A stretch of DNA of 12,755 nucleotides from Clostridia bacterium (GTDB taxonomy: Bacteria; Bacillota_A; Clostridia; TANB77; CAG-508): positions 1 to 12,755 of the forward strand of contig JAGATI010000129.1 of NCBI GenBank assembly GCA_017621295.1. The letters run 5' to 3'. How positions within the stretch are numbered: position 1 is the first letter of the stretch; every line of letters starts with the position of its first letter. Below are positions 1,622 through 12,755 of the stretch, piece after piece. The notes beneath the pieces were generated by a model. It made no database searches. It was not told where the DNA came from and saw nothing but the letters and a program-made list of their open reading frames with translations. Made by a program: the position numbers and the translations under genes.

Positions 1622-1787
1622 CAAAAAAGAGTGCCAAAAAATCAATCGAAATAGTTATACTATTTCAACTCATTTCTTAACACTCTTATATCTTGCTCCC
1701 AGTATACTACGTTTAAAATACACCATTGGAATATAAGTACGCTATGGGTAATTAGCCCCACTAGTTTAAGATTTTCATATTCAACTG
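1622..1787 (-). ncRNA. Strongly promoted structured leader RNA or stand-alone ncRNA
   Basis: A consensus promoter (1794-1822) would start this RNA near 1787, and a strong hairpin-plus-T-run terminator ends it near 1622, giving about 165 nt. Visible stems, 5' to 3' on the minus strand, are as follows. UUGAAUAU pairs with AUAUUCCAA (one bulged C), closing a domain. That domain contains CUA-UGGG paired with CCCAUAG around an eight-base GCUAAUUA loop. A GGUGUAU/GUAUACU stem follows. Last is the long terminator hairpin 1687-1627. There is no credible ORF. It lies between the genes starting at 2263 and 1563, so it may be a cis leader (attenuator) for the 1563 gene or an independent RNA. It matches no riboswitch I can name: I see no T-box or other signature I recognise. 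Confidence 0.6.
1627..1687 (-). terminator. Unusually long intrinsic terminator hairpin
   Basis: The arms are 27-29 bp long around an AUA loop, with one G-G mismatch and several G-U pairs. The base is AAGAGTG/CACTCTT, followed on the minus strand by TTTTTTG. On the plus strand no T run follows, so it works for minus-strand transcription. It ends the RNA started at about 1787 and sits 60 bases upstream of the next gene's start, as an attenuator would. Confidence 0.75.
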
Positions 1788-1793
1788 TCTAAT

Positions 1794-1822
1794 ATTATAC
1801 ACCCTATTAAAAACTATGTCAA
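1794..1822 (-). promoter_or_regulatory. Consensus sigma-A promoter (TTGACA-N17-TATAAT)
   Basis: The -35 TTGACA (1822-1817) and -10 TATAAT (1799-1794) are both perfect, with exactly 17 bases between them. It is the strongest promoter in the window by consensus. It points into the structured RNA at 1622-1787 and onward to the gene at 1563. Confidence 0.85.
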
Positions 1823-1858
1823 TACTTTTTTAAAAAATTTTTTTATTTTTTTTTGAGG

Positions 1859-2263
1859 TTAATTTTTTCCCATATCATAAATTTTTATTCTTACTTTTAC
1901 TTGTTCCATTAATTCCTCTATTGTAGAAATATTTATTGTAACTACTTGATTTAATATATATCCTTCAATATTTCCTAAATCTTTAAATAATTTGTATACC
2001 TTTTCTAAATGTATGTAACATTTACCATATTTTTCATAATTATATTTATTAGGTAGTTCTCCAATATTTTTCTTTTCGTTTTCAGAATTATTTTCTTCAA
2101 GTATTTTAGAAATTTCCTCAATTATATTATTTAGTATTTCTACTTTTTCTTTTACTGCTTCTTCTGTTACTTTTTCTTCAATATCCTTTTTTGATATTTG
2201 TAAACGATTTCTCATTTCAGTTATTACTGGTAATATGTTTGTTCTATCATCAATTTTTCCCAT
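1859..2263 (-). CDS. Hypothetical protein with helical, coiled-coil N-terminal half
   Basis: This 134-residue protein has an ATG start with AAAGGAG about 10 bases upstream. A well-formed promoter (2291-2319) lies about 30 bases before the start, so it is the first gene of its transcript. The N-terminal half is Glu/Lys/Ile rich and helical (KDIEEKVTEEAVKEKVEI, NIIEEISKILEENN), typical of a coiled coil. The second half looks more globular (KYGKCYIHLEKVYKLFKDLG, VVTINISTIEELMEQVKV). There is no signal peptide, membrane segment or catalytic motif, and I do not recognise the family. Downstream lie poly-A/poly-T palindromes and the promoter of the ncRNA, with no GC-rich terminator between. Confidence 0.75.
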   Translation of the reverse strand: MGKIDDRTNILPVITEMRNRLQISKKDIEEKVTEEAVKEKVEILNNIIEEISKILEENNSENEKKNIGELPNKYNYEKYGKCYIHLEKVYKLFKDLGNIEGYILNQVVTINISTIEELMEQVKVRIKIYDMGKN

Positions 2264-2290
2264 TTTTCTACAACTCCTTTAACTTTTGAT

Positions 2291-2319
2291 ATTATATCAC
2301 TTATTTCATCAAATGTCGA
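2291..2319 (-). promoter_or_regulatory. Extended -10 promoter for the 2263 gene
   Basis: TCGACA (2319-2314; one mismatch to TTGACA), a 17-base spacer and TATAAT (2296-2291) preceded by TGA make a strong extended -10 sigma-A promoter reading into the gene that starts at 2263. Confidence 0.75.
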
Positions 2320-2500
2320 GAGTTTAGACTTTTTTAATTTTATTTTTTATTAATATGTATATTACTTTTAAATATATTTTTATTATTATTTATCTCTTTT
2401 AGTTACTCGTATTTACATTTAAGTTATTTTCATAAAAATTTTTTTTAAAACCTTAGATACCCCAAAACACTTTTAAATTTTTTTCTTTCTCCAAACTTAA

Positions 2501-2785
2501 CCACAATGCCCCTTAATACCATCAGTTCAATTTCAACTCAACCACAATGTCATCAGTTCACTTTCAACTTGTCTTTCAACTCAACCTTCAATTCCATCAG
2601 TTGCCCATCTAACTGAAAAGCCAACTCAAATTTCAACTATTCCATCAGTTACCCATCTAACTGAAAAGCCAACTCAAATTTCAACTATTCCATCAGTTGC
2701 CCATCTAACTACAAAACCAACTCAACCTATAATACAATATCAATACCATCTATACCCACTATACCATCATATCCCATTATCTTAA
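2501..2785 (+). pseudogene. Possible remnant of a Pro/Thr/Ser-rich repeat protein
   Basis: This frame is open from a TAA at 2498-2500 to a TAA at 2783-2785. It reads the 48-bp repeat as a 16-residue unit (PTQISTIPSVAHLTEK and close variants), like the Thr/Pro linkers of surface proteins. There is no start codon with a ribosome binding site, and the flanks do not look like coding sequence. Because the strand is nearly G-free, TAG and TGA are rare by chance, so an open frame of this length is weak evidence. I list it as a possible decayed gene only. Confidence 0.2.
2594..2737. repeat. 48-bp tandem repeat, about 2.7 copies
   Basis: Each unit begins CCATCAGTT. Units start at 2594, 2642 and 2690. 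The first two differ at a single base (G/A after CCATCAGTT). The third matches for about 37 bases with a few changes, then diverges. Further degenerate CCATCA(G/A)TT words occur at 2519, 2795 and 2890, so the array may once have been longer. Confidence 0.85.
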
Positions 2786-3000
2786 CCTACTGTTCCATCA
2801 ATTCCCCTCTATACTGTCAACTCAACTTTCATTTCAAAATCAACTCCATTTCAACTTGACCATCTTATCCCTTATCTTAACCTACTGTTCCATCAGTTCA
2901 ACCTCTAACTAAAAAATCAACTGTATTTTCAACTTAAATTTTAACTCCAATTCTAACTACAAAAACAAATACATATATAATAAGAAGGAAATATCACATA

Positions 3001-3112
3001 AAAACCATATAACCATTATATATCTAGTCATAACCACGATTAACTACAATTTAATTTCTATTAAAGTTCATATAAAACCATATACCACCAAAAAAAAATT
3101 AATCTAGTAACA
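3001..3112 (+). repeat. Left copy of recombinase-flanking direct repeat
   Basis: It aligns with 3986-4095 in the same orientation at roughly three-quarters identity. Shared blocks are AAAACCATAT at the left end, TATATCTAGTCATAAC and ACGATTA in the middle, TATAAAACCATATACCAC and TTAATCT at the right. Each copy thus carries two AAAACCATAT words about 72 bases apart. A further AAAACCATATA lies just upstream of the recombinase start (3293-3303). These are plausible res-type or operator subsites for the serine recombinase. Confidence 0.7.
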
Positions 3113-3240
3113 CAAGTAACAAATCAACTCAACCATCAATACCAGTTCTAACAGTATTCAAGAAACTATAATTTATGGAACACCTCAAAACTATATCAAA
3201 TTTGTATTCAATAACCTATCTATACCACTTTTTAAACATA

Positions 3241-3266
3241 TTCAAAAAATAAAAAACTTTTTTGAA
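3241..3266. repeat. Perfect 9-bp inverted repeat upstream of recombinase
   Basis: TTCAAAAAA and TTTTTTGAA are separated by eight bases. The arms are AT-only except for the outer G-C pair. It could be a protein-binding dyad or a weak terminator in front of the recombinase gene. Confidence 0.4.
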
Positions 3267-3330
3267 CAAACCGTTATTTACATTTACCACAAAACCATAT
3301 AATATAAATAAAAAAAGGAGATAATCAGTT

Positions 3331-3984
3331 ATGGAAAAATCAGAAATACCAACAGTTACAACAAATACAGAAAACAAAATAAATTATTATGGATATTGTA
3401 GAGTATCTACTACCCATCAGAAAGAAGATAGACAAGTTGAATCAATGATTAATTACGGAATACCACAAGAAAATATTTTTATAGATAAGAAAAGTGGAAA
3501 AGACTTTAATCGTGAAGAATACCAACTACTTAAACGAATTTTAAAAAGAACTACAAACAATGTACTTGTTATCAAATCTATTGACAGACTTGGAAGGAAC
3601 TATACACAAATACAAAACGAATGGAGAGAATTAACCCAAGACTTACAGACAGATATAGTTGTATTAGATATGCCAATACTAGATACAAGACAATACAAAG
3701 ATTTACTAGGGAACTTCATTTCTGACCTAGTCCTACAAGTTCTATCTTTTGTATCTGAAAACGAAAGAAAAAATATCTTATCAAGACAGAAAGAAGGAAT
3801 TGAGATAGCCAAGTCCAAAGGAACTAAATTCGGAAGACCAACTATTCCAATTCCAACTAATTTTGAAACAGAATATAAAAAGTGGAAAAACAACGAACAG
3901 ACAGCCAAAACTACAATGGAAAATCTTAATTTAAAAAGAACTAAATTTTATAATTTTGTCAGTATCTATGAAAATAAAATATAA
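3331..3984 (+). CDS. Serine recombinase, resolvase/invertase type
   Basis: This 217-residue small serine recombinase has an AAAGGAG Shine-Dalgarno about 11 bases before the ATG. The N-terminal catalytic domain begins near residue 19 (YYGYCRVSTTHQKEDRQ), with Ser26 as the nucleophile and Arg24 beside it. The conserved IDRLGRN arginine motif is near residue 85, followed by the dimerisation E-helix (LVLQVLSFVSENERKNI) and the AKSKG...FGRP linker. The C-terminal part after FGRP is short and ends in a helix-turn-helix-like stretch (EQTAKTTMENLNLKRTKFY). Enzymes of this size cut and rejoin DNA at paired short sites, for multimer resolution or inversion. Diverged direct repeats at 3001-3112 and 3986-4095 flank the gene and are the obvious candidate sites. 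A further AAAACCATATA lies in its promoter region, suggesting autoregulation. It could equally be the recombinase of a small mobile cassette. Confidence 0.93.
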   Translation: MEKSEIPTVTTNTENKINYYGYCRVSTTHQKEDRQVESMINYGIPQENIFIDKKSGKDFNREEYQLLKRILKRTTNNVLVIKSIDRLGRNYTQIQNEWRELTQDLQTDIVVLDMPILDTRQYKDLLGNFISDLVLQVLSFVSENERKNILSRQKEGIEIAKSKGTKFGRPTIPIPTNFETEYKKWKNNEQTAKTTMENLNLKRTKFYNFVSIYENKI

Positions 3985-3985
3985 T

Positions 3986-4095
3986 AAAACCATATCCACA
4001 ATATATCTAGTCATAACTACGATTATCTACGATTAATCTTTTATAATAATTAATATAAAACCATATACCACAAAAAATAGATTAATCTGATAACA
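3986..4095 (+). repeat. Right copy of recombinase-flanking direct repeat
   Basis: It starts two bases after the recombinase stop codon and is the partner of 3001-3112. This copy has an extra internal duplication, CTACGATTA-type words at about 4018 and 4028. The unit bounded by the two copies, including one of them, is about 985 bases. Confidence 0.7.
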
Positions 4096-4191
4096 ACAAA
4101 AACACTTTCCTTCTAACCTTTTTTTAAACCTTAATTTATCTATATTTCTATAAACTAATATTATAAATTTTAAATATTGGAGGAATCAATA

Positions 4192-4320
4192 ATGGTACAA
4201 CTTTTTGAAGAAGAACTACAACTAAAAAATAAATGTCTATCTGAAAAAGATTATTTATCTATGTTGGAAAATATGAAAGAAGAAATAGAAAGTCTAATTA
4301 ATTCTTTGAAAACGAAATAA
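4192..4320 (+). CDS. Small acidic helical protein (42 residues)
   Basis: ATG at 4192 follows a GGAGG Shine-Dalgarno by 8 bases, and the frame closes with TAA at 4318. The product starts MVQLFEEELQLKNKCLSEKD and continues as a Glu/Lys/Leu helix with heptad-like spacing (MLENMKEEIESLINSLKTK), so a short coiled coil is likely. It lies downstream of the recombinase and the right repeat, on the same strand, and ends before the bidirectional terminator at 4429. I do not recognise it. The ribosome binding site, codon use and helical amphipathicity support it as real. Confidence 0.65.
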   Translation: MVQLFEEELQLKNKCLSEKDYLSMLENMKEEIESLINSLKTK

Positions 4321-4398
4321 AAAATTTAAATACTTTTTAAAAAAATTAATATTAAATAACAATTTTCCTAAAAAAACATAAACTTTTTCTATAAACTA

Positions 4399-4420
4399 AT
4401 TATAGATAATTCTCTATAAT
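4399..4420. repeat. Short perfect inverted repeat
   Basis: ATTATAGA and TCTATAAT form an 8-bp dyad with a 6-base TAATTC centre, lying between the small ORF and the terminator. It may be a weak hairpin in the mRNA 3' end or a binding site. Confidence 0.4.
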
Positions 4421-4428
4421 AATCATTA

Positions 4429-4468
4429 AATAATACTAGGAGATAACCTAACAACTCCTAGTATTATT
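4429..4468. terminator. Bidirectional terminator between convergent genes
   Basis: A perfect 14-bp stem (AATAATACTAGGAG with CTCCTAGTATTATT) has a 12-base loop and T-rich flanks on both strands. It lies between the plus-strand ORF ending at 4320 and the sortase gene ending at 4479. Confidence 0.85.
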
Positions 4469-4478
4469 TCTGTTTAAA

Positions 4479-5261
4479 CTATTTTACCTTTTTAGCCACT
4501 ACAACAAATCTTCCATCTTCTTGACTATATTCACAAGTAGACAAAGTTAAAAGTTGATCTCCATAGTTAGCCGTTACACCAGTATCATATATACTTGAAT
4601 TTTTACAATTTTCTACAAAATCGTTATAGTCTGTTTCATTTTCTGAATTAACAAAATAATAATATCTAAAAACATTTTGTTCATTTTTATAATATACCCT
4701 AGAATAAAAAACTGACATTACCTCATATGTACTATCTTCATTTAAAGTAGTAAATCGTATCGTTTTATGATTATTATAAAAATCTTCTTCCTTATAATTC
4801 ATCAAATCTTGGAACATAGTTCCATTTTTATTATTATGACCATACAATAATAAATTACTACTAGGAATATCCCAATTATAACTTTTGTCTAAAAATATTG
4901 AGCCATCTTTTGAACTTTCTTTTTTATAATTATGTTTCATATAAAAGTCATTATCAGTTGTCTGTAATACTGGATAATCTATATTTGTATCGTTAATTTG
5001 TATCCAACCTACAATATCTTCATTTTCCTTTTTCAATTCTTCCAGTTGTAGTATTCTCTCTGTTTTCTGTTCTGTAATTTCTGTTTTATCAATTACAACA
5101 TTATTAAGTATGTCCGTATTATCCTTTTTATTCTTATTACTACTATAAAAATAATGAACAATATAACCTATACCCAAAACAAAAACTACAATGAACAATA
5201 ATAAAATAATTCTTTTAAATTTATTATTAATCTTCTTACTGTGTCTTGATTTCTGTTTCAT
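4479..5261 (-). CDS. srtB: Class B sortase
   Basis: This 260-residue membrane-anchored cysteine transpeptidase joins secreted proteins to the cell-wall cross-bridge. A positively charged N-terminus is followed by one transmembrane helix (residues about 18-39, IILLLFIVVFVLGIGYIVHY), so the enzyme faces outward with its N-terminus inside. The catalytic domain shows the class B hallmarks: VGWIQINDTNIDYPVLQ, the catalytic His142 in LLLYGHN, Cys243 in TLSTCEY and Arg251 in DGRFVV. Length and motifs fit intact SrtB enzymes. The gene next upstream on the same strand encodes a protein with a TPKTG sorting signal, its probable substrate, so the pair forms a dedicated anchoring module. The ribosome binding site is GTGAGG about 8 bases before the ATG. 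The class assignment is secure; the peptidoglycan type it acts on is not visible here. Confidence 0.95.
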   Translation of the reverse strand: MKQKSRHSKKINNKFKRIILLLFIVVFVLGIGYIVHYFYSSNKNKKDNTDILNNVVIDKTEITEQKTERILQLEELKKENEDIVGWIQINDTNIDYPVLQTTDNDFYMKHNYKKESSKDGSIFLDKSYNWDIPSSNLLLYGHNNKNGTMFQDLMNYKEEDFYNNHKTIRFTTLNEDSTYEVMSVFYSRVYYKNEQNVFRYYYFVNSENETDYNDFVENCKNSSIYDTGVTANYGDQLLTLSTCEYSQEDGRFVVVAKKVK

Positions 5262-5286
5262 TTATCAAACCTCACTTATAAAAATA

Positions 5287-5311
5287 GGGGTAGTATTTTA
5301 GTTCCTACCCC
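5287..5311 (-). terminator. Hairpin between surface-protein and sortase genes
   Basis: A GGGGTAG/CTACCCC stem of 7 bp with an 11-base loop is followed on the minus strand by TATTTTTAT. It ends the surface-protein transcript or attenuates read-through into the sortase gene. A TGATATAAT extended -10 immediately before it (5324-5316) could instead start a sortase transcript within the hairpin. Confidence 0.65.
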
Positions 5312-5315
5312 ATAC

Positions 5316-5324
5316 ATTATATCA
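5316..5324 (-). promoter_or_regulatory. Possible extended -10 promoter for the sortase gene
   Basis: TGATATAAT matches the TGnTATAAT extended -10 perfectly, just after the surface-protein stop codon. No good -35 is seen 16-18 bases upstream. Separate expression of the sortase would follow if it is used. Confidence 0.4.
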
Positions 5325-5326
5325 AA

Positions 5327-6889
5327 TTATTTTAATCTTTTCTTTAATTCAACTATTCCTACTAATGATACAAGTGTTACTAAACTTACAAATCCTATTA
5401 TATCTACTGTTCCAGTTTTTGGAGTTTCGTCTTTTTCTCCTTTATCTACTGTTTGTGTTGGGATTTCTGTTTCTGTTGGAGGTGTTGTCTCTTTTTTATC
5501 TTCAAATATTGAAATACCAAATGGAGATAGACTATCAACTGTTATTTCAATTTTTCCATCTTTAACAATTCCTTCAAATCTTTCAAAATTTCCATAGTTA
5601 ATACGGTGAGATACATAATAATATTTTCCATTATATTGTTCTCCAACATTAAATGTCAATTTTAATTTTCCACCATAATTTCCACTTACTCTATATATAT
5701 CAAATATACTTAAATATATTGAATTATTATAATTACTAGTATTTTCATCTATTTCATTTTTTACATTATTGTATATACTATCAGTTGTTTCTATCTTTGA
5801 TATATCAAACTTTGCACTTCCCCAATAATTAACATTTACCTTGTTATCTACATTTTGTTCATTTTTTGTATTATCATTAATTGTTACAGTTTCTTCTTTT
5901 TCATTTTCACTTAACATATAATTATATACAAAATATGTTGGTATTTCAGTTCCATTCTTTAATTTATAATTAAAGAGTCCTCTATGTCCATTTTGTAATT
6001 TTATCTCACTAACTTTCCTTTTATAGACATATACTCTTTCTCCAGAATAATTTTTTTCTATACCTTCATAATATAAAATATCTTTACTATTTTCTAATAC
6101 TATTTTTTCACCTTGATATTGTTCTAAACTTAATTTTAAGTATACCTTAGATAAATCTTTATTACTTGGAATTATACCACAAGGATTATCATAAGTACTA
6201 TTATCATCATAAATAGGGTAAAGATAACTGAAATAACTATAACTACTGTCTCCTCCACCGTATCCTCCTATTGTATAATCTACATTATGTTCATTTACAA
6301 ATTCTTCTTGAAAAAATGTATTTTGATTAACTGTTAAATCTGTCTCAATACTAAATGATAAATATAAAGTATTTTTATCTTCATTTTCATAATAGTCTAA
6401 TGACCAACCATATTCAACATTTCTTATATCATTATTTTTATGTCCTTTTTCAGAACATTCTGCTTTATAATGTATAGTTCCTTTTAATATTAACCAATTT
6501 TCATTATTAATTTTTTCTATTTCTATTGTTTTTCCATCAACTGTTTTAGCACTTGTTACATTATTTCCTACTTTTTTCTTTACAGTATAATTTATATCTC
6601 TATCATTAATAAATTTATTAATATTAGTTTGATTCATAATTAACTTACTTGATTCCGTAACTCCAACTATATCCTCTAATTTTTCTAATTCTATAATAAT
6701 TTCTTGATTATTTTCTTTTTCTAATCTTGTTATAGTTATTTTTCCATTATTACAAGTTACATTTCCACTTATCCAATCACAATTATACTCATAAGTACTT
6801 GCCTCAACTTTTGTTGTTCCAATTAATAACATTGTTACTAACATTATTCCAAACATTAGTAAAATTTTAAAGTTCGTTTTTAACTTCAT
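5327..6889 (-). CDS. Secreted, sortase-anchored surface protein (TPKTG)
   Basis: This 520-residue cell-wall protein has an ATG start with AAAGGAG about 11 bases upstream. It has a classical Sec signal peptide (residues 1-30; hydrophobic core ILLMFGIMLVTMLLIG, likely cleavage VEA|S). The C-terminal sorting signal is TPKTG (489-493), a hydrophobic stretch (VDIIGFVSLVTLVSLVGIV) and a basic tail (KKRLK). TPKTG fits the (S/P/N)PxTG-like signals reported for clostridial class B sortases. The mature part is Asn/Tyr/Ser rich and beta-like, with a Cys pair near the N-terminus (CDWISGNVTC). Just before the linker is a DSLSPFGISIF segment of the kind seen before anchors of clostridial surface proteins. 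A Pro/Thr spacer precedes the signal. I do not recognise an enzymatic or adhesin domain. The sortase gene follows 65 bases downstream. Confidence 0.9.
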   Translation of the reverse strand: MKLKTNFKILLMFGIMLVTMLLIGTTKVEASTYEYNCDWISGNVTCNNGKITITRLEKENNQEIIIELEKLEDIVGVTESSKLIMNQTNINKFINDRDINYTVKKKVGNNVTSAKTVDGKTIEIEKINNENWLILKGTIHYKAECSEKGHKNNDIRNVEYGWSLDYYENEDKNTLYLSFSIETDLTVNQNTFFQEEFVNEHNVDYTIGGYGGGDSSYSYFSYLYPIYDDNSTYDNPCGIIPSNKDLSKVYLKLSLEQYQGEKIVLENSKDILYYEGIEKNYSGERVYVYKRKVSEIKLQNGHRGLFNYKLKNGTEIPTYFVYNYMLSENEKEETVTINDNTKNEQNVDNKVNVNYWGSAKFDISKIETTDSIYNNVKNEIDENTSNYNNSIYLSIFDIYRVSGNYGGKLKLTFNVGEQYNGKYYYVSHRINYGNFERFEGIVKDGKIEITVDSLSPFGISIFEDKKETTPPTETEIPTQTVDKGEKDETPKTGTVDIIGFVSLVTLVSLVGIVELKKRLK

Positions 6890-6998
6890 CTTTTTTTCTC
6901 TCCTTTTTTAATATATAATATTTTAAAATTTATCTTAACTTTTATACTCTATATCATCTCCCTCTTTTTCTTCCGACCTTTTTCTTACATTCGTTATC

Positions 6999-7027
6999 AT
7001 ATTATCACATTTTTTAATTTTTGTCTA
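6999..7027 (-). promoter_or_regulatory. Extended -10 promoter of the surface-protein gene
   Basis: TAGACA (7027-7022; one mismatch), 17 bases and TAATAT (7004-6999) with TGA directly before it read toward the surface-protein start at 6889. The untranslated leader would be about 100 bases, purine-rich at its 5' side. Confidence 0.7.
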
Positions 7028-7113
7028 CTGTTTTCGTCAGTTATTTTCTTGTGAGTTATAAAAATAATAATAATCTTGTAAAATATACCTATCCATAGAA
7101 TTGGAGGTGTATT

Positions 7114-7332
7114 ATGTTAAAATTAAATGTTCTAAATCTATTAGAGAAAAAAGGAAAATCTAAATATTGGTTATTTAATCAACTAAATCAACTTGGAAGT
7201 ATCAGTTATACCAATTTTAATAATATAGTAATGAACAAAACTAATTCTATTAAATATGAAAATATAGAAAAGTTTTGTCAAATATTAGAGTGTGAACCTA
7301 ACGACCTATTTATAAAAACAGAAAATGACTAG
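7114..7332 (+). CDS. XRE/Cro-type helix-turn-helix regulator
   Basis: This 72-residue DNA-binding protein has a strong TTGGAGGTG Shine-Dalgarno before its ATG. The whole chain is one Cro/C1-type domain. Helix 1 is KLNVLNLLEKKGKSK. YWLFNQLNQLG is the HTH first helix, followed by ISYTNFNNIVMNKTNSIKYENIEKFCQILECEPNDLFI, ending in the typical terminal motif of small XRE regulators (CQILECEPNDLF). There is no extra effector domain. It is transcribed divergently from the surface-protein gene (6889) across a 224-base spacer, so it may regulate that promoter, its own, or both. Its stop codon overlaps the end of the convergent 7577 gene. Confidence 0.9.
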   Translation: MLKLNVLNLLEKKGKSKYWLFNQLNQLGSISYTNFNNIVMNKTNSIKYENIEKFCQILECEPNDLFIKTEND

Positions 7333-7358
7333 GACATTAATAGGTCCTTAGCCATTTT
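7322..7358. terminator. Bidirectional terminator containing both genes' stop codons
   Basis: AAAATGaCTAgGAC pairs with GTCCTtAGcCATTTT (one bulge, one mismatch), with A-rich 5' and T-rich 3' sides on each strand. The TAG stop codons of the plus gene (7330-7332) and minus gene (7331-7329) share the palindrome CTAG inside the stem. Confidence 0.65.
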
Positions 7359-7577
7359 AAAACCTTTTACAAAACATTGTTTATGTAGTTCGTGTTCCGC
7401 ATCAAATGCCAAACAGAAAGCCTTTTCCAACTTGTCCTTTTGTTCATCTGTTAAGTTTAATTCTGTTTCCAACTCTTCTCGTAATTCTCCATATACTTTC
7501 ATTATTTCTTTATATTCTTCTGTTGTATTATTTAATATCTCATCTGAATTCTGTTCAAATAATTCCTCAATACTCAT
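7329..7577 (-). CDS. DUF6809-like small helical protein
   Basis: This 82-residue, acidic, all-helical protein has an AAGGGGG Shine-Dalgarno before the ATG at 7577. The layout resembles phage and plasmid proteins of the DUF6809 type. A short N-terminal LFEQNSDE segment is followed by a long helix pair (EYKEIMKVYGELREELETELNLTDEQKDKLEKAF). A terminal FVKGFKMAKDLLMS helix resembles the family's FIRGFRLGARL ending. The family has no known function. The gene is the last of the minus-strand operon that starts at 9365, and its end overlaps the convergent regulator by four bases, CTAG. Family assignment is from memory of the pattern and is moderately sure. Confidence 0.8.
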   Translation of the reverse strand: MSIEELFEQNSDEILNNTTEEYKEIMKVYGELREELETELNLTDEQKDKLEKAFCLAFDAEHELHKQCFVKGFKMAKDLLMS

Positions 7578-7610
7578 ATCAATTCCCCCTTATACCTAAA
7601 ATATTATAAC

Positions 7611-8042
7611 TCAATTATTCCATAAATACTGTAATTTTAATAATTTTTCTATTCCTCTTAAATCATAATTCAATAAATTACTACTATCTCTATACTGTCT
7701 TTTCAATAATTCTATTGGTACACTATGAACTTTTAAACTAAAATACTTTTTATATTTTTCAATTTTTTCATCTGTTAATGATATAGAATATCCATCTTTT
7801 TGACCACATATTATAAATGTACCACATATAATATCATTTGTAATAATTCTGTTCATTTCTAAATTATTCATTTTTCCTTCATCATTACAAATTAAATCTA
7901 CTGTTTCTTCTAATTCCACAAATTCTATAAGTCCACCTACAATTTTTTGTTTTTCTTCAAGTGTATTATCAATTTCTTTTACATAAGGTTCTTTTCTAGG
8001 TTCAACTATTAAAACTTTAATCTTCTTTTCCTTTTCCAACAT
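7611..8042 (-). CDS. DUF3846 family protein
   Basis: This 143-residue protein has an AGAGGAG Shine-Dalgarno about 8 bases before the ATG. It shows the DUF3846 pattern: KVLIVEPRKEPYVKEIDNTLEEKQKIVGG near the N-terminus, then the conserved CNDEGKMNNLEMNR segment (residues about 52-65) and DIICGTFIICG. After residue 95 a lineage-specific helical extension follows (LTDEKIEKYKKYF and beyond). DUF3846 proteins are common on Bacillota plasmids, conjugative elements and phages and have no established function. Gene spacing (45 bases after the mini-DnaB gene, 33 before the next) fits an operon, but the strong hairpin at 8067-8103 lies directly upstream and should reduce read-through. Confidence 0.88.
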   Translation of the reverse strand: MLEKEKKIKVLIVEPRKEPYVKEIDNTLEEKQKIVGGLIEFVELEETVDLICNDEGKMNNLEMNRIITNDIICGTFIICGQKDGYSISLTDEKIEKYKKYFSLKVHSVPIELLKRQYRDSSNLLNYDLRGIEKLLKLQYLWNN

Positions 8043-8066
8043 ATACTTGCTCCTCTAATAAAATAA

Positions 8067-8103
8067 AACTCTTTACTGTTAATCAATTTAACAATAAAGA
8101 GTT
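8067..8103 (-). terminator. Strong hairpin inside the operon, overlapping the mini-DnaB stop codon
   Basis: AACTCTTTA-TGTTAA pairs with TTAACA-TAAAGAGTT (one internal mismatch) and is followed on the minus strand by TTATTTTATT. The TAA stop of the 8627 gene is within the upstream arm. It would terminate or attenuate transcription between the ATPase and DUF3846 genes. The preceding plus-strand sequence is also A-rich, so it may act both ways. Confidence 0.65.
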
Positions 8104-8627
8104 AGATTATCTTCTAAAAATATCCTTTCATCAATTTCCTTTAATTTTTCCTTATCTTCAATTAAATTTTTACCTCTACTGGATAGATAAGAAGTAAACA
8201 AAATAGAAACATTTAATTCAACTACTAATTTTTTCAACTCCTTACATATATTTTCAATTTCTATATCTCTACTTAAACATTTAGATTTATCATAATTAAC
8301 TAACTGTAAATAATCAATTACAACAAATTTAATATCTTTCTCCTTTTTTAGATCTCTTACATATTGTCCTATTTCATCTGTTGTTATCCCTGGAGTATCT
8401 ACAATAAATAAATTTGAATTATTATGTCCAATTCTATTTATTATACCTTCCTTTGACAATTCTAAACTAAAAAATACTACTGGAACATTTTTATTATAAC
8501 TTAAATATTCAGATAACTTAATAACTGTTATAGTCTTACCAGTATAAGACTTCCCACATAAAGAAATTAATTTTGGAGTATTACTATTTATCAGTTCTTC
8601 TATTTCTATTCTTAAATCTTTTCCCAT
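8088..8627 (-). CDS. Stand-alone mini DnaB-like (RecA-fold) ATPase
   Basis: This 179-residue single-domain ATPase related to the replicative helicase DnaB has an AAAGGAT ribosome binding site. Its motifs run in DnaB order. Walker A is GKSYTGKT (25-32). Next come VVFFSLELSKE with catalytic-type Glu56, then LFIVDTPGITTDEI (73-86, close to DnaB's DDTPGLSVxEI). Walker B is FVVIDYLQLV (Asp105). After SRDIEIENICKELKKLVVELNV comes a motif-H3-like LFTSYLSSRGK. Two things are unusual. The N-terminal primase-binding domain of DnaB is absent. The chain also stops shortly after H3, so the H4 region with its DNA-binding loop and arginine finger is mostly missing. The H3 glutamine (SQL in DnaB) is Tyr147. 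It may load, regulate or mimic a helicase rather than unwind DNA itself; that is inference. Confidence 0.88.
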   Translation of the reverse strand: MGKDLRIEIEELINSNTPKLISLCGKSYTGKTITVIKLSEYLSYNKNVPVVFFSLELSKEGIINRIGHNNSNLFIVDTPGITTDEIGQYVRDLKKEKDIKFVVIDYLQLVNYDKSKCLSRDIEIENICKELKKLVVELNVSILFTSYLSSRGKNLIEDKEKLKEIDERIFLEDNLTLYC

Positions 8628-8653
8628 ATCTTATATCCTTTCTACATTATTAC

Positions 8654-9127
8654 TTATATAATTTTAAATTCATCTAATCCATCTATTAGTCCTAATGTAC
8701 TCCCATTTTCCCATTTCATATGTATAGTACCCATATCATCTACAAAATTTACTGTTCCTTTTGTTCCAGTTTGTAACTCTTGTAAATCATACATTTTTAT
8801 CAATTCAATTTTTGTACCAGTAATATATTTTTCTTTTATCTTTATAACCTCTTCATCTGATAAATCTTTTATTACACTTTGTTTCTGTAATGTTAAAATA
8901 ATTTCTTCAAGTCCTTTTAAATCTGTAATTTCATTAATTCTACCAAATAGACTTTTTACTTTTAATTTATTTTCAAATTCTTCTATGTATAGAACTTCAC
9001 ACAAACTTTTTATCTCTTTTCTATAATGTGAATATTCAAGTGTTAATGACTTCTCATCTAATATCATTACTATATTACCTACATACTTTTCACTTATTAA
9101 CTTTATTACTCCCATCAGTTGTTCCAT
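8654..9127 (-). CDS. DUF4314 domain protein with an N-terminal extension
   Basis: The 157-residue product has a C-terminal DUF4314 domain (residues about 102-157). It reads GTKIELIKMYDLQELQTGTKG, then VNFVDDMGTIHMKWENGSTLGLI and a DEF ending, a small SH3-like beta barrel. The N-terminal 100 residues (MGVIKLISEKYVGNIVMIL, then KEIKSLCEVLYIEEF) form an alpha/beta part I do not recognise; it is unusual because many DUF4314 proteins consist of the barrel alone. The family is frequent on Bacillota plasmids, conjugative elements and phages, with no established function. The ribosome binding site is only purine-rich (GAAAGAG) and an alternative ATG lies four codons in, so the exact start is uncertain. 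It is the second gene of the operon. Confidence 0.87.
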   Translation of the reverse strand: MEQLMGVIKLISEKYVGNIVMILDEKSLTLEYSHYRKEIKSLCEVLYIEEFENKLKVKSLFGRINEITDLKGLEEIILTLQKQSVIKDLSDEEVIKIKEKYITGTKIELIKMYDLQELQTGTKGTVNFVDDMGTIHMKWENGSTLGLIDGLDEFKII

Positions 9128-9158
9128 TTAATTTTTTCTCTTTCTTCTTTTAATAAAT

Positions 9159-9365
9159 TTACAATTTAACTTTATTTGTCTTTTGATATAAAATAAATTC
9201 TTCTAATGCCTCTAATGTACCACACTCACTACATATCTCCGTTTTATTATCTTTTCTCGAAAGTGATGGATAACCTACAATATTATTCTTACACCTAGGA
9301 CATATCTTTTGTTCTTCTAGTGTCAACTTATTCTTTATATGTACATTTTTAACTTTTATACACAT
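9159..9365 (-). CDS. Small zinc-ribbon protein
   Basis: This is a 68-residue protein. I place the start at the ATG at 9365, directly behind a GAGGTGGTGAG Shine-Dalgarno. A longer frame reaching 9515 would translate that site and carries an unrelated hydrophobic N-terminus, so I reject it. Two Cys pairs, CPRC and CSEC, separated by a segment with the conserved PSLSRKD words and followed by GTLEALEEF, match the zinc ribbon of small phage and plasmid proteins (CPRC...ALSR...ICxECGTxEA). It probably binds one zinc ion and acts as a nucleic-acid or protein adaptor; its partner is unknown. It is the first gene of the operon running to 7329 and has its own promoter about 100 bases upstream. Confidence 0.88.
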   Translation of the reverse strand: MCIKVKNVHIKNKLTLEEQKICPRCKNNIVGYPSLSRKDNKTEICSECGTLEALEEFILYQKTNKVKL

Positions 9366-9458
9366 TTTCTCACCACCTCTCATCTTAAAAATGGGGATAG
9401 AGAATTTACCGAAATAATAAAATAAATTCCCTATATTAAATGACAGACATACTATAAT

Positions 9459-9483
9459 AAGTATTAATTTAATTATAATACTT
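9459..9483. promoter_or_regulatory. Operator-like dyad over the -10 of the zinc-ribbon operon
   Basis: AAGTATTA and TAATACTT form a perfect 8-bp inverted repeat around a nine-base A/T centre. It covers the TATAAT at 9477-9472, so a bound dimer would block the promoter. The XRE regulator at 7114 is a candidate; this is inference. Confidence 0.4.
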
Positions 9484-9501
9484 GCACTAAAACTCTGTAA
9501 A
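9472..9501 (-). promoter_or_regulatory. Promoter of the zinc-ribbon operon
   Basis: TTTACA (9501-9496), an 18-base spacer and a perfect TATAAT (9477-9472) read toward the ATG at 9365. The dyad at 9459-9483 overlaps the -10. Confidence 0.6.
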
Positions 9502-9543
9502 CGGTTATATATCAATTATTTCCACGATTACCTCTAATGAATT

Positions 9544-9583
9544 TTTTTATTTTTAATGTATAATTTATTAAATTTAATCTAAA
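9544..9583 (+). repeat. 40-bp direct repeat, copy 1 (downstream of FtsZ-like gene)
   Basis: Every base matches 10419-10458, with the same orientation. It is AT-only apart from one G and one C (AATGTATAATTTATT core). Identity ends abruptly on both sides. On the minus strand it lies upstream of the zinc-ribbon gene. Confidence 0.9.
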
Positions 9584-9595
9584 AATTCATTCTTG

Positions 9596-9620
9596 ATACC
9601 TTCTCGTTTATCAGAGGTAT
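9596..9620 (-). terminator. Probable terminator of the FtsZ-like gene
   Basis: ATACCT-CT pairs with AG-AGGTAT (8 bp with one bulged T) 21 bases after the stop codon. The minus-strand tail is T-rich but interrupted (GAATGAATTTTTAG), so termination may be partial. Confidence 0.45.
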
Positions 9621-9640
9621 ATTAAGAACTATTTTATTGA

Positions 9641-10318
9641 TTAGATAAATCTTTTTCTTATAAAGTCCATTAAATAATCATAACTTAAATCTTCTATTTC
9701 ATCAGAATGTATATAAAAATAATTAACTATTTCTTGAAAATCGTGTCTAACACTATCATCTAAATCTTTAAAAGTTTGAATAAGACTTCTTACTATTTCT
9801 AAAATTTGATTATTTAGATTATTAGGATTACTAATTAATAATAAATCTGTATTTTCACTTAATTCATCTTTTCCCTTTCTAGAAATTTCTCTTTTCTTTT
9901 TACCTTCAAATAAAAAAGGAACTGAAACACAACTTATTGTTACAATTCCCATTTCTTTTATCATTTTACTTATTAACGGAGTAACTATTGTTCCAGTTCC
10001 ACCACCTAGACCAGTTACTAAAAATACAACATTAACATTTTCTAATTCCTTTTGTAGAAATTCTTTTATTTCTTTTTCACTTTCCTTAAATGCCTTTACT
10101 CCAATATCAACATTACAATAAGTTCCTAGTCCTTTCGTAACTTTTTCTCCTATCAATAATTTAGAACTAGACTTTGATTGATTTAATTCTTCTCTGTTTG
10201 TACTAATAGTTATGTAGTCAATACTTTCATCATTAGTTGTTTCAATTATCCTATTAATCATATTTGTACCAGCCCCACCAATACTAATAACTTTAATTTT
10301 TAACTTTTTAGATTCCAT
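9641..10318 (-). CDS. Truncated FtsZ-like tubulin-superfamily GTPase
   Basis: The product has 225 residues, an AAGGAAT ribosome binding site and an ATG at 10318. The GTPase domain is recognisably FtsZ-like. The first nucleotide-binding loop is IKVISIGGAGTN (8-19; FtsZ IKVIGVGGGGGN). Then come DYITISTNREEL, a KGLGTYCNVDIGVKAFKES loop (62-80) and the tubulin signature LGGGTGT (104-110). FtsZ-like VPFLFEGKKKR (133-143) and LLLISNPNNL follow. Near the end HDFQEI (192-197) matches the T7 loop NxDFxD, keeping the catalytic-type Asp193, with Glu at the second acid. Only about 28 residues follow, so the whole C-terminal activation domain and the FtsA/ZipA-binding tail are missing (FtsZ is usually 350-400 residues). 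It is too diverged and too short to be the host divisome FtsZ. It may be a polymer or a regulator for segregation, membrane remodelling or interference with division. It is flanked by 40-bp direct repeats. Confidence 0.92.
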   Translation of the reverse strand: MESKKLKIKVISIGGAGTNMINRIIETTNDESIDYITISTNREELNQSKSSSKLLIGEKVTKGLGTYCNVDIGVKAFKESEKEIKEFLQKELENVNVVFLVTGLGGGTGTIVTPLISKMIKEMGIVTISCVSVPFLFEGKKKREISRKGKDELSENTDLLLISNPNNLNNQILEIVRSLIQTFKDLDDSVRHDFQEIVNYFYIHSDEIEDLSYDYLMDFIRKRFI

Positions 10319-10655
10319 TATTTTTTAATTCCTTTCTATCAATTTTTTATATTTTAAATCTTTTTTCATATTTCTGAAACTGATTTATTAACTATTTCTA
10401 ATTTTTATTTAGAGGAACTTTTTATTTTTAATGTATAATTTATTAAATTTAATCTAAATGTAAATACATCTAAATTCAATAGGAAAACGTATTTTAGAAG
10501 AACATTAACTACATAAAATAAATAGAAAATGACTAAGTGTAAACATATAACTGAAATATGAAGATAATTTGGGAGAATTTTGAACAAACACAAAAAATAT
10601 ACTACTTGATTAATAATTTTATAATTCTTGTAAACCCTTAAATATAAACGAATAA
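10319..10655. other. AT-rich spacer upstream of the FtsZ-like gene
   Basis: This 337-base stretch holds the ribosome binding site of the FtsZ-like gene, one copy of the 40-bp repeat (10419-10458) and a weak plus-strand promoter (10628-10656). Frames open here on the minus strand lack a ribosome binding site and show low-complexity hydrophobic translations, so I see no gene. Confidence 0.6.
10419..10458 (+). repeat. 40-bp direct repeat, copy 2 (upstream of FtsZ-like gene)
   Basis: It is identical to 9544-9583 over 40 bases and begins 875 bases from that copy. It lies 100 bases upstream of the FtsZ-like start on the minus strand. A TATACA -10-like hexamer inside could be part of a duplicated promoter, but no clear -35 accompanies it. 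Confidence 0.9.
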
Positions 10656-10656
10656 T
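10628..10656 (+). promoter_or_regulatory. Weak promoter candidate for the Cys-rich gene
   Basis: TTGTAA (10628-10633), exactly 17 bases and AATAAT (10651-10656) would start an RNA near 10664, about 16 bases before the ATT at 10680 that could stand in for the missing start codon of the Cys-rich frame. Confidence 0.3.
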
Positions 10657-10847
10657 TACTCTCTCTATACACTTTTTTTATTATACTTAAAGTTACTCAA
10701 TATTTTACTGATAAAAATGGTGAATTTGTTTTTGGACCTTTATGTCCAGATAAATTTTATGAAATACAAATTTGGGTAGACCATGTAAAACATGCTAAAA
10801 TTTGTGCTACTTGTGAACATGAAGGAGCTTGTTTAAAAGGTGTAGAT
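10656..10847 (+). other. In-frame coding-like extension of the Cys-rich gene without a start codon
   Basis: The frame of the Cys-rich ORF stays open upstream to a TAA at 10653. From about 10680 it reads as protein (LKVTQYFTDKNGEFVFGPL, then CPDKFYEIQIWVDHVKH, then ICATCEHEGACLKG), and its four Cys fit the downstream composition. No ATG, GTG or TTG occurs in frame before 10848 and no Shine-Dalgarno precedes the segment. An ATT at 10680, where ATG would be expected (ATTATACTTAAAGTT), suggests a mutated or rare start. Loss of the true 5' end is the alternative. Confidence 0.55.
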
Positions 10848-11141
10848 ATGGACTGTGATAAAAAAGATAAATGTTGTCACAAAGAAAAACATGATTGCAA
10901 AGATAAATGTGATTGCAAAAAAGAACATGATTGTAAACACGAATGTAAAGAGGACTGTGACTACAACGACAAATGTCACTGCAAAGAAGAAAAACCAGAG
11001 TGTATAGAAAAATGTGATTGTAAAGAAGATAAAAATGAATGTATAGAAAAATGCGATTGTAAAAAGGAAGAAAAAAAAGGATGCATGGAAAAATGCGACC
11101 ATAAAGGAAAATGTGACCCAAGACCATTTTATTATAGATAA
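10848..11141 (+). CDS. Extremely Cys-rich, metallothionein-like repeat protein
   Basis: Counted from the ATG at 10848 (AAAAGGTG about 5 bases upstream), the product has 97 residues, about 20 of them Cys. The rest are mostly Lys, Asp, Glu and His. Cys occur as KCDCK, KCCHK and ECIEKC groups. A 13-residue unit of the form xECIEKCDCKxxK occurs twice in tandem and more loosely elsewhere. Dense CxC and CxxxC spacing with His and acidic residues indicates soft-metal (Zn, Cu, Cd) binding, as in metallothioneins, or disulfide cross-linking, as in some coat proteins. No family is recognised with confidence. The frame continues upstream for at least 56 protein-like codons (see the preceding entry), so the real protein is probably about 153 residues or its 5' end is broken. 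A strong terminator follows 28 bases after the stop. Confidence 0.75.
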   Translation: MDCDKKDKCCHKEKHDCKDKCDCKKEHDCKHECKEDCDYNDKCHCKEEKPECIEKCDCKEDKNECIEKCDCKKEEKKGCMEKCDHKGKCDPRPFYYR

Positions 11142-11169
11142 TGATTAAATATAATATATGTAACATTTC

Positions 11170-11203
11170 AAATGGATAAACCTTTTTTAAGGTTTATCCA
11201 TTT
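11170..11203. terminator. Bidirectional terminator with perfect 15-bp stem
   Basis: AAATGGATAAACCTT and AAGGTTTATCCATTT surround a TTTT loop, with T-rich sequence beyond the stem on the plus strand and A/T-rich sequence on the other. It separates the Cys-rich gene from the convergent 11358 gene. Confidence 0.85.
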
Positions 11204-11217
11204 AATTTATCTTTATA

Positions 11218-11358
11218 TTATATAATTCCAATTTTCTTCATCATTTGCTTTCCTTTTTTCATTAGCTTCTTTTTATCTTGTCCCATTGTTTCTGTATAAG
11301 CAAGCACTATACTTGCAGAAACAATACTTCCTACTAACATACCTTTAACAAATTTCAT
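11218..11358 (-). CDS. Small membrane-associated protein (46 residues)
   Basis: ATG at 11358 follows a strong GGAGG Shine-Dalgarno by about 10 bases, and the frame ends with TAA at 11218. The protein has one hydrophobic helix (residues about 5-20, KGMLVGSIVSASIVLA) and a strongly basic, Met- and Lys-rich tail (DKKKLMKKGKQMMKKIG). This layout resembles short YtxH-like or similar clostridial membrane proteins with a cytoplasmic basic tail, though I cannot assign a named family. It sits 36 bases downstream of the TSUP gene ending at 11395 and may belong to that transcription unit. The terminator at 11170-11203 follows directly. Confidence 0.75.
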   Translation of the reverse strand: MKFVKGMLVGSIVSASIVLAYTETMGQDKKKLMKKGKQMMKKIGII

Positions 11359-11394
11359 TATTTTCTTTCCTCCTTTTACATATTTTTAAATATA

Positions 11395-11772
11395 TTATGC
11401 CTTATTCTTTGACTTTATATACTCTTTATATAAAGAATATACTTCATGAATAGCAATAATTATTAAAAATATTGCAAAACACTTTTTTAATTTGTTTACA
11501 TCTATGTTACTTCCTATATATGCTCCTATAACTGCTCCTATAACTCCAAAACAAGATAAGCAAAGAGCTAATTTTATATTTATATTCTTCTGCTTTAAAT
11601 TTACAATTATAGATATAATTGAAGTAGGAATAAAAAATATTAGATTAGTTGCTTGGGCTATATGTTGATCATATTTCCAAATTATAGATAGTAAAAGAAT
11701 TAGTATTGTTCCACCACCCATTCCAATACCAGTAACAATTCCTGAGACAACACCTATTAATATTTCTACCAT
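11395..11772 (-). CDS. Half-size TauE/SafE (TSUP) transporter subunit
   Basis: This 125-residue integral membrane protein has about four hydrophobic segments. It starts with the TSUP repeat signature GVVSGIVTGIGMGGGTILILLL (residues about 7-28), then an AQATNLIFFIPTSIISIIVN segment (about 40-59), ALCLSCFGVIGAVIGAYIGS and a final CFAIFLIIIAIHEVY helix. TauE/SafE exporters usually have two such repeats in about 250 residues; here the halves are separate genes. The partner is encoded next upstream (12195-11851), so the two probably form a heterodimer. TSUP members move sulfite, sulfonates or other organic anions outward. The ribosome binding site is weak: the nearest AGGAGAG is more than 40 bases upstream of the ATG. 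Confidence 0.88.
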   Translation of the reverse strand: MVEILIGVVSGIVTGIGMGGGTILILLLSIIWKYDQHIAQATNLIFFIPTSIISIIVNLKQKNINIKLALCLSCFGVIGAVIGAYIGSNIDVNKLKKCFAIFLIIIAIHEVYSLYKEYIKSKNKA

Positions 11773-11850
11773 ATTTAATATTTGTCTGCTTTATAAAAAT
11801 ATAACAAGCAAACTCTCCTTATATTAATTTTAAAAGATTTATCTTTTTCT

Positions 11851-12195
11851 TTACTTTAATAAATTAAATGCTGCATAAAATAAAAAGACAATAAATATAA
11901 TTTTTAAATATTTATTATTAATTTTATTTAATAATTTTGCACCTATCAATCCACCTATTATTCCACCTATTGCAGTTTTTATTCCTATATTCCAATCTAT
12001 ATAATTATTCTTGTAATAAAATATAGTACTAGTAAGTACCATTGGCAATATTGCAAAAATAGTTGTTGCTCTTGCCTCTTTTTCATTTAACCCTAAAAAA
12101 TAAATACAAGCTGGAAGCAATATTAACCCTCCACCAGAAGCAAAAAGGCCACTAAAGAAACCAGCTATAATTCCTATTATTATTTTTTTTATCAT
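11851..12195 (-). CDS. Half-size TauE/SafE (TSUP) transporter subunit
   Basis: This 114-residue integral membrane protein is homologous to the product encoded next downstream. The first helix carries the family's glycine-rich loop (IIAGFFSGLFASGGGLILLP). The conserved EARATTIFAILPM segment follows at about residues 39-51 (compare AQATNLIFFIP in the partner). Next come AIGGIIGGLIGAKLLNKI and a last helix (IIFIVFLFYAAFNLL). It lacks the second TSUP repeat and presumably pairs with the 125-residue subunit. Its ATG lies one base after the stop codon of the 12505 gene, with only a weak AAGTGG ribosome binding site, so translation is probably coupled to that gene. The substrate is not determined by anything visible. 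Confidence 0.88.
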   Translation of the reverse strand: MIKKIIIGIIAGFFSGLFASGGGLILLPACIYFLGLNEKEARATTIFAILPMVLTSTIFYYKNNYIDWNIGIKTAIGGIIGGLIGAKLLNKINNKYLKIIFIVFLFYAAFNLLK

Positions 12196-12196
12196 T

Positions 12197-12505
12197 TTAT
12201 ACCACTTTTTTATTTTTATTCTTTTCTCTATTAGTATGTTCTTTTTTGAATAATTTATTCTTTGTTCCTTCTTTATATGCTCTTTTGTATAGTTTTACAA
12301 ATTGTGCTTCTGAAATTTCTGTTAATATTTGGTCACAAACTAACATATTATTAATTATACTTTGTCTTAATTCTTCGTCTTTTATATTGCTTGCTCTATC
12401 TAAAAATTTTTCTAATGCCTTTATATATTTTTCGTCACTATTTTTCCATTTTTCTCCAATTATGTTGTTTATAAAAAAGTTCTTTTGTATTGTAAATAAT
12501 TGCAT
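12197..12505 (-). CDS. Hypothetical helical protein, first gene of the transporter operon
   Basis: This 102-residue protein has an AGGAGG Shine-Dalgarno 7 bases before the ATG at 12505. It is predicted all-helical (EKYIKALEKFLDRASNIKDEELRQSIINNMLVC, then AQFVKLYKRAYKEGT) and ends in a highly basic tail (KKEHTNREKNKNKKVV). It has no signal peptide, membrane helix or metal-binding motif, and I do not recognise it. The tail could contact nucleic acid or the membrane. The next gene, a TSUP subunit, begins one base after its stop codon, implying translational coupling. A role in control or assembly of the transporter is possible but not shown. Confidence 0.8.
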   Translation of the reverse strand: MQLFTIQKNFFINNIIGEKWKNSDEKYIKALEKFLDRASNIKDEELRQSIINNMLVCDQILTEISEAQFVKLYKRAYKEGTKNKLFKKEHTNREKNKNKKVV

Positions 12506-12536
12506 TCTTAAGTCCTCCTATTAATTTGTTGGTTTC

Positions 12537-12565
12537 ATTTTAATACATTAAATTGTAAATTTCAA
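12537..12565 (-). promoter_or_regulatory. Proximal promoter of the transporter operon
   Basis: TTGAAA (12565-12560), a 17-base spacer and TAAAAT (12542-12537) read toward the ATG at 12505, giving a short leader of about 25 bases. Confidence 0.6.
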
Positions 12566-12619
12566 CCATTTTTTACAAAAAAAGTAAAATAATACATTTT
12601 TTTCCTGTAAATTTTTAGT

Positions 12620-12648
12620 ATATTATCACAGATTTTGTAAAATTGCAA
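12620..12648 (-). promoter_or_regulatory. Distal promoter of the transporter operon
   Basis: TTGCAA (12648-12643), 17 bases and TAATAT (12625-12620) with TGA directly before it form an extended -10 promoter. Its GTGATAATAT core is shared with the surface-protein promoter at 6999-7007. Confidence 0.55.
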
Positions 12649-12755
12649 TATTAATTTTGAAATTAATGTTAATTTATTAGTTTATTTGTTACTAGTTAGT
12701 GTTAATTTCCAAAACACATATAAAATTAGTCCGTAGCCTGTGTATTTATATATAA

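Follow-up and report, generated by a model that had tools for sequence, protein, structure and literature searches.

FtsZ has been taken to need both of its halves, since each of its active sites is built from two subunits. TubZ and PhuZ, tubulin-family proteins of mobile elements, are two-domain, filament-forming proteins, and in TubZ-type systems tubC repeats and a TubR partner adjoin the gene. To our knowledge, none of the FtsZ blockers, phage or host proteins that disturb assembly of the Z-ring (lambda Kil, T7 Gp0.4, P1 Icd, T5 Hdi, SulA, MciZ, MinC), is an FtsZ homologue; for SulA, MciZ and MinC, the available part of PMC11938149 places binding on the bottom (C-terminal) face of FtsZ. Among diverged FtsZ-like proteins, FtsZl1 has no recognisable T6-H7 region or FtsZ-like C-terminal domain in the accessible part of its description, which gives it a coiled coil and a different, helical C-terminal domain (Makarova and Koonin 2010, PMC2875224). 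Here we describe a gene, named ftsZs in this work, in a 12,755-nt stretch of DNA from a Clostridia bacterium (contig JAGATI010000129.1 of assembly GCA_017621295.1, positions 1 to 12,755; hereafter the window), which encodes only the nucleotide-binding half of an FtsZ.

Compared with FtsZ (TIGR00065), ftsZs has the same nucleotide-binding-domain fold and helix H7, with 35-43% identity over the domain for most of the full-length matches listed; a GGGTG-type T4 loop occurs in 10 of the 20 members of its family, and FEG(K/Q/E)K in T5 in most. It differs in having no C-terminal domain, linker or tail and no NxDxxD in T7, in its changed N44, D46 and G72, in four additional residues in H3, and in lying on integrative elements whose host genomes have a normal ftsZ besides. 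Like FtsZl1 and FtsZl2 it is a diverged FtsZ-like protein, but unlike FtsZl1, as far as the available text of PMC2875224 describes it, ftsZs keeps H7 and ends after it with a short helix, and the FtsZ model recognises it at 1e-47. With TubZ and PhuZ it shares the condition of a tubulin-family protein on a mobile element, but the similarity is weak (1.1e-4 for the PhuZ family phrog_4733, against 1.4e-47 for the FtsZ model); near ftsZs there are a flanking pair of 40-bp repeats and, some 7 kb off, an iteron-like array (2514-2940), with no TubR-like match among the proteins scanned. The likeness to the FtsZ blockers is one of possible function only. In the literature searched, which left subscription papers largely outside, we found no account of an FtsZ family made up of just the nucleotide-binding domain and H7.

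A one-domain descendant of FtsZ

A preliminary description of this DNA had called the reading frame an FtsZ homologue missing the whole C-terminal domain, and both statements hold. The frame begins with ATG, runs on the minus strand and encodes 225 residues, of which 7-169 match PF00091 (tubulin/FtsZ GTPase, 5.4e-30). The TIGR00065 ftsZ model aligns residues 3-200 with profile positions 15-205 of 353 (1.4e-47), at a score below its cut-off (162.8 vs 295.2 bits). Sequence matches in the PDB at E<=0.01 (n=53) are FtsZ in all cases except RepX 4ei7 and one antibody chain; FtsZ chains rank first, and the RepX match is weak (3.2e-4). PF12327, the FtsZ C-terminal domain, has no match in the protein. 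When this domain of a host FtsZ was compared by tblastn with the window and four loci carrying relatives (L001, L002, L011, L012), no match appeared at E<=10, whereas the control locus L005 was matched at 9e-66. In the structure model the protein closes with a helix (residues 213-224), and L211, Y213 and L216 are invariant in the C-terminal stretch. ftsZs thus descends from FtsZ and keeps the fold of its nucleotide-binding domain together with H7, without the C-terminal activating domain.

This architecture defines a family. A search of 5.8 billion proteins with ftsZs gave 7,777 matches; of the best 120, which were listed, the top 18 have lengths of 205-233 aa and are followed by full-length FtsZ. 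A profile search added one further member, P0122 (216 aa), and a 140-aa family fragment, P0123. The lowest-scoring of the 19 members reaches 357 bits, the fragment 242 and the best full-length FtsZ 192. With the window protein the family counts 20 members of 205-233 aa that share an end point in the alignment, each of the other 19 standing for one cluster at 90% identity. P0002 is 99% identical to the window protein, P0017 starts late and sits on a 908-base contig, and there are small exceptions to the common end, P0019 and some others running a few residues longer. Size-matched homologues are unnamed in their source databases. Three of the short FtsZ-like proteins listed, P0127 (296 aa, PF00091 only), P0100 (296 aa) and P0185 (254 aa), carry NxDxxD and were set aside as non-members.

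The homologue search and tree proposed in the preliminary description confirm that a reduced FtsZ family exists. The tree was built from 69 sequences. Its 22 short proteins make up a single clade (support 99) on a stem of 1.20 substitutions per site; the other 47 are full-length (45 from 73 non-redundant proteins, plus two host FtsZ), and the nearest sister, P0093, is a single long branch that was not relied on. A frameshift, or homologues that were all of full length, had been named as grounds for discarding this reading. Since 19 further proteins end alike, ftsZs is not a sequencing error, and a frameshift or truncation artefact is ruled out by this family-wide end point and by the lack of any C-terminal remnant downstream. 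Between the window gene and its four relatives in the loci, nonsynonymous divergence (pN) is 0.17-0.26 and synonymous divergence (pS) 0.30-0.39, with no stops; a neutral simulation at pS 0.33, used because plain dN/dS is biased by AT-rich third positions, gives a pN of about 0.46 and about 21 stops. The family is under purifying selection.

The GTPase site and helix H3

The preliminary description had also placed the end of the protein right after a retained T7 loop, and this has to be abandoned. HDFQEI (residues 192-197) lies in helix H7, where it aligns with QGVQGI of FtsZ, and the T7 of FtsZ aligns with EIEDLSYDYL near the C-terminus of ftsZs, within its last ~20 residues. Because this register comes from sequence alignment, we made a register-free motif test: neither NxDxxD nor a looser acidic pattern is present within the final 38 residues of any of the 20 family members, whereas 162 of 164 full-length FtsZ have NxDxxD.

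Single positions were compared, in S. aureus numbering, between the 20 members and 103 full-length proteins. N44 has become S, and D46 either S or N, in the entire family; Q48 is lost in 18 members, and G72 is replaced by F, Y or S in 19. N208 and D210 are lost in all members, D213 in 19, and N166, a guanine contact, in 15. Each of these residues is kept in 102 or 103 of the 103 full-length proteins. R29, G107, G108, G110 and F138 are retained throughout the family, R143 is R or K in 20/20, D187 is retained in 18, F183 in 17 and T109 in 10. Over the near-invariant FtsZ positions up to 222 (n=109), the family keeps 43, keeps 21 in part and loses 45. T6 and parts of T2 and T3 are altered as well. 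As read from these alignments, residues of the composite GTPase site are lost on both faces. In S. aureus FtsZ, whose active site is two-sided, assembly is abolished by D46A, N208L, D210N and D213N (PMC8936486, in the part available). Both halves of the site being altered in ftsZs, we infer the loss of GTPase activity and of ordinary assembly.

Conservation has moved elsewhere. An insertion of four residues in H3, mostly F/Y-L-Q-K, is found in 20/20 members, in columns that are gapped in >90% of 104 FtsZ rows; this one-turn extension of H3 is specific to the family. Column entropy is lower in the family than in full-length FtsZ for H1 (0.41 vs 0.89 bits), H3 (0.75 vs 1.39) and H5 (1.06 vs 1.56), and higher for T3 (0.86 vs 0.24), T4 (0.52 vs 0.03), the H6-H7 loop (1.68 vs 1.08) and H7 (0.96 vs 0.57). 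T5, a longitudinal contact, is kept about like the rest of the family (0.82 vs 0.56 bits). In E. coli FtsZ, H3 is a region of lateral contacts, with A87 between R85 and R89, according to the accessible part of PMC12137876. Taken together, this shift and the lateral role of H3 argue against a simple end cap formed by the normal top face and for a partner on the H1/H3/H5 side; since T5 is kept, an end-on contact could still be made. The pattern of conservation would thus slightly favour the H1/H3/H5 side over an end-on cap.

Integrative elements and their genes

ftsZs is carried by small integrative elements (~10-16 kb) of Clostridium-like bacteria, at or near their outer edge. Relatives were found in four genomes, all of which also have a full-length FtsZ: G001, a metagenome-assembled genome (MAG) labelled Tenericutes, G002, a MAG labelled uncultured Clostridium sp., G206 and G213. 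G001 may be misbinned, as its ftsZs relative is on a 12-kb contig. Counted at E<=1e-70, with the centre genome included and in draws that overlap, carriers amount to 3/385 genomes in the order of G002, 1/390 in its family and 1/391 in its class, to 2/194 in the genus of G213 (with G206 as the centre, again these two among 194), and to 1/288 in the order of G001. ftsZs is rare among the genomes surveyed.

Chromosomal genes surround the elements of G002, G206 and G213. On contig 2 of G002 the element probably extends over ~54.4-64.1 kb and is bounded by imperfect direct repeats (15 bp exact); it has a partial tyrosine integrase (51% identity to its counterpart in G206) and a Rep-like gene at its far end. 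In G206 some 16 kb separate the outermost gene, a mini-DnaB, from a full tyrosine integrase; we found no terminal repeats at the ends of this element and no overlap between the ends of locus L013. G206 also has a second, diverged full-length FtsZ (L018, G206:C15:28348-28632; open frame of 325 aa), a paralogue or a contamination. In G213, ftsZs is inside 13.8 kb that split the transpeptidase gene of a penicillin-binding protein beside mraZ, mraW and ftsL (neighbours read by eye), domain positions 2-226 being at 26593-27372 and 224-289 at 41188-41367 (C9; L011:11048-12367 with L014). Beside the far junction are open reading frames (ORFs) read by eye as serine recombinases, and the split gene resembles the gene-intervening elements of sporulation genes described in the available parts of PMC5595907 and PMC4191935. 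The DNA of the window is homologous to the G001 element as far as 10617, so its host flank probably begins beyond that point.

A named phage or plasmid carrier was sought and rejected. With the ftsZs protein, tblastn matched 94 plasmid and 18 phage records, all at <60% identity; the rows listed (20 plasmid, 18 phage), many of them unannotated, have 32-42% identity, the level of ordinary FtsZ. Scans of IMG/VR found no relative.

The replication-type neighbours pointed out in the preliminary description are borne out on the mobile elements: mini-DnaB, a compact RecA-type ATPase, is within ~1 kb of ftsZs in all five loci (the window, L001, L002, L011, L012). DUF3846 is found in four of them, a sortase with an LPXTG-type protein in three and a serine recombinase in three, some of the five loci ending early. 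The mini-DnaB is a RecA-type core of 158-186 aa across loci, except in L011, where fusion to a zinc ribbon brings it to 220 aa; the mini-DnaB structure model has moderate confidence (pLDDT 77.0). Mini-DnaB matches 20 plasmid records, in most of which the gene is named dnaB, and 17 phage records, most of them without annotation, RepB of Mycoplasma phage MAV1 being an exception. In L012 a second DnaB-like protein (L012:10698-11195; PF03796, 1.4e-10), with no P-loop by eye, directly follows ftsZs. Weakly Rep-like genes are present on the elements of L002 (phrog_702, 9e-5) and L015 (Phage_CRI, below cut-off), and Rep-like genes also in L014 (by similarity) and L013 (86% identical to that of L002).

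Table 1. Position of ftsZs, its parts and the neighbouring features in the window
Coordinates	Strand	Feature	Remarks
9641..10318	-	ftsZs	225 aa: nucleotide-binding domain, H7, degenerate T7, short terminal helix
9641..9712	-	C-terminal stretch of ftsZs, residue 203 to stop	Degenerate T7 position without NxDxxD, and final helix
10049..10060	-	Codons of the 4-residue H3 extension (residues 87-90, FLQK, in the window protein)	From alignment
10419..10458	.	40-bp direct repeat, copy upstream of ftsZs	100% identical to 9544-9583
9544..9583	.	40-bp direct repeat, copy preceding the next gene set (zinc ribbon, DUF4314, mini-DnaB, DUF3846)	
10458..10469	.	Palindrome ATGTAAATACAT, candidate operator upstream of ftsZs	Exact copies upstream of ftsZs in L001 and L002
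9159..9365	-	Zinc-ribbon-like protein	Start taken at the MCIK methionine, the program-made ORF extending to 9515; zinc-ribbon families below Pfam cut-offs
8654..9127	-	DUF4314 protein, 157 aa	PF14192, 1.2e-25
8088..8627	-	Mini-DnaB, compact RecA-type ATPase, 179 aa	P-loop kept
7611..8042	-	DUF3846 protein, 143 aa	Also in L001, L011, L012
7329..7577	-	82-aa ORF, end of gene set	No match in locus comparison
7114..7332	+	72-aa ORF facing the gene set	By eye, a small helix-turn-helix regulator; one weak match far below cut-off

As one copy of the 40-bp repeat stands before ftsZs and the other before the next gene set, the two may share control. The operator proposed for the palindrome is suggested by position only, since the count of palindromes with 1 mismatch is not above chance; a promoter scan (33 vs 30.6 expected) was uninformative. 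The DNA preceding ftsZs resembles that preceding the next gene, as though a single promoter with its start had been duplicated, and the peptide MCIK begins several element genes (window 9159-9365, L001:1744, L002:8919, L011:13666, L012:9456). Small ORFs are placed like the 82-aa ORF of the window in L001, L011 and L012 (by eye). No RNA family reached the gathering threshold in the window, and anti-phage defence families gave weak matches only, the best being mad8 to mini-DnaB (5e-4).

Farther from ftsZs, two 133-bp direct repeats, 77% alike, enclose a serine recombinase gene (3331-3984; whole block 2989-4104). This block is 83-84% identical in DNA to L007 and L011, with recombinase proteins 89-90% identical, which exceeds most neighbouring genes; it may be an independently moving cassette. 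Close to the recombinase is the imperfect, iteron-like repeat array, ATTCCATCAGTTGCCCATCTAACTGAAAAGCCAACTCAA, with a spacing of 48. A sortase (4479-5261, PF04203) and a 520-aa surface-type protein ending in TPKTG and a membrane-like segment (5327-6889), both conserved on the L002 and L012 elements, are apparently cargo. In the flank, a Cys/Lys-rich, repetitive ORF (CDCKKEHDCKHECKE..., 10848-11141) has two half-size membrane-transporter-like ORFs by it (11395-11772, 11851-12195), with weak matches to PRK10621 and MamO only.

Possible roles of ftsZs

The reading we tentatively prefer, giving it a little less than an even chance, is that ftsZs is a catalytically dead mimic of FtsZ that binds the host Z-ring or an FtsZ partner. 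Such a protein would bind guanine nucleotide without turnover, would stay monomeric or oligomerise in a new way, and would attach to host FtsZ filaments or to an FtsZ partner by its likeness to FtsZ. Having no bottom face, it could then terminate, weaken or wrongly decorate the Z-ring during replication of the element, in a way similar to the division blockers encoded by phages. Capping or poisoning of host FtsZ by ftsZs would be possible because the carrier genomes have a full-length FtsZ and the family lacks the bottom face. Analogies for a mimic come from the available parts of three reports: bottom-interface mutants of FtsZ are toxic and top mutants are not (PMC8936486), MinC and MciZ act at the bottom end of FtsZ (PMC11938149), and FtsZ blockers such as Kil are encoded by phages (PMC3961180).

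Several points weigh against such a mimic. The top-face residues that would meet the T7 of host FtsZ appear both changed and variable: the cap's top face has lost N44, D46, Q48 (in 18/20) and G72, and D46A alone abolishes the assembly of S. aureus FtsZ, as reported in the accessible part of PMC8936486. Two longitudinal contacts, the H2 tip (1.48 bits) and the H6-H7 loop (1.68 bits), rank with the most variable regions of the family, whose mean is 0.89. Nucleotide binding does not seem assured either, N166 being lost in 15 and T109 in 10 of the 20 members. Moreover, the constant partner gene is a fragment of DnaB, which points to replication as much as to division.

A role in replication is the next explanation to consider, possible and on balance somewhat unlikely in our judgement. 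Here ftsZs would be a nucleotide-bound helper of replication or copy control, a GTP/GDP switch working with mini-DnaB, the zinc ribbon and Rep, and would make no contact with host FtsZ. The constant proximity of mini-DnaB (5/5 loci), the presence of DUF3846 in 4/5, the weakly Rep-like genes on the elements of L002, L015, L014 and L013, the lost chemistry of the longitudinal interface and the displacement of constraint to H1, H3 and H5 all speak for it. However, a nucleotide switch sits badly with the loss of the N166 guanine contact in most members, co-occurrence on small elements may reflect shared carriage only, and we are aware of no connection between an FtsZ domain and DnaB.

A broader scenario, which we hold to be quite unlikely, would unite division and replication: the element would have turned a division protein into a weapon or a tool. 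This one-domain FtsZ, without GTPase chemistry and with a lengthened H3, would enter or edge host Z-rings and would come in one gene set with a reduced DnaB, so that truncated copies meet both host division and host replication.

Distinctly less probable is a side-on decorator, in which the extended H3 would bind a neighbouring protofilament or an FtsZ-associated protein and reposition the ring, for instance for segregation of the element, without capping. The H3 extension of all 20 members, the stronger conservation of H3 than in FtsZ (0.75 vs 1.39 bits) and the lateral contacts reported around A87 of E. coli FtsZ (PMC12137876, available part) are consistent with it, but the conservation of H3 could serve any partner, a homodimer included.

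We consider it very improbable that ftsZs builds a minimal filament of its own that segregates the element in the manner of TubZ or PhuZ; a minimal filament was an option raised in the preliminary description. The tubulin-family fold on a mobile element invites the comparison, but the C-terminal domain, the T7 catalytic motif and the top-face ligands are missing, most of the gamma-phosphate interface residues tested being lost on both faces; no TubR- or TubY-like gene is found among the proteins scanned, and in G002, G206 and G213 the elements have chromosomal surroundings. A self-made filament is thus unlikely. That ftsZs is a decaying remnant or an assembly error of a full-length ftsZ, as its lost catalytic residues might suggest, is hardly credible against the common end of 20 proteins, the family-specific invariants and H3 extension, the purifying selection and the lack of a C-terminal remnant downstream.

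The existence of a conserved one-half lineage without catalytic residues means that the nucleotide-binding half of FtsZ can hold a selected role alone. If ftsZs binds host FtsZ, it would provide a natural test of which surface is used by a one-sided subunit, and it would represent a new mode of division control by mobile elements, as well as a tool for studying filament polarity.
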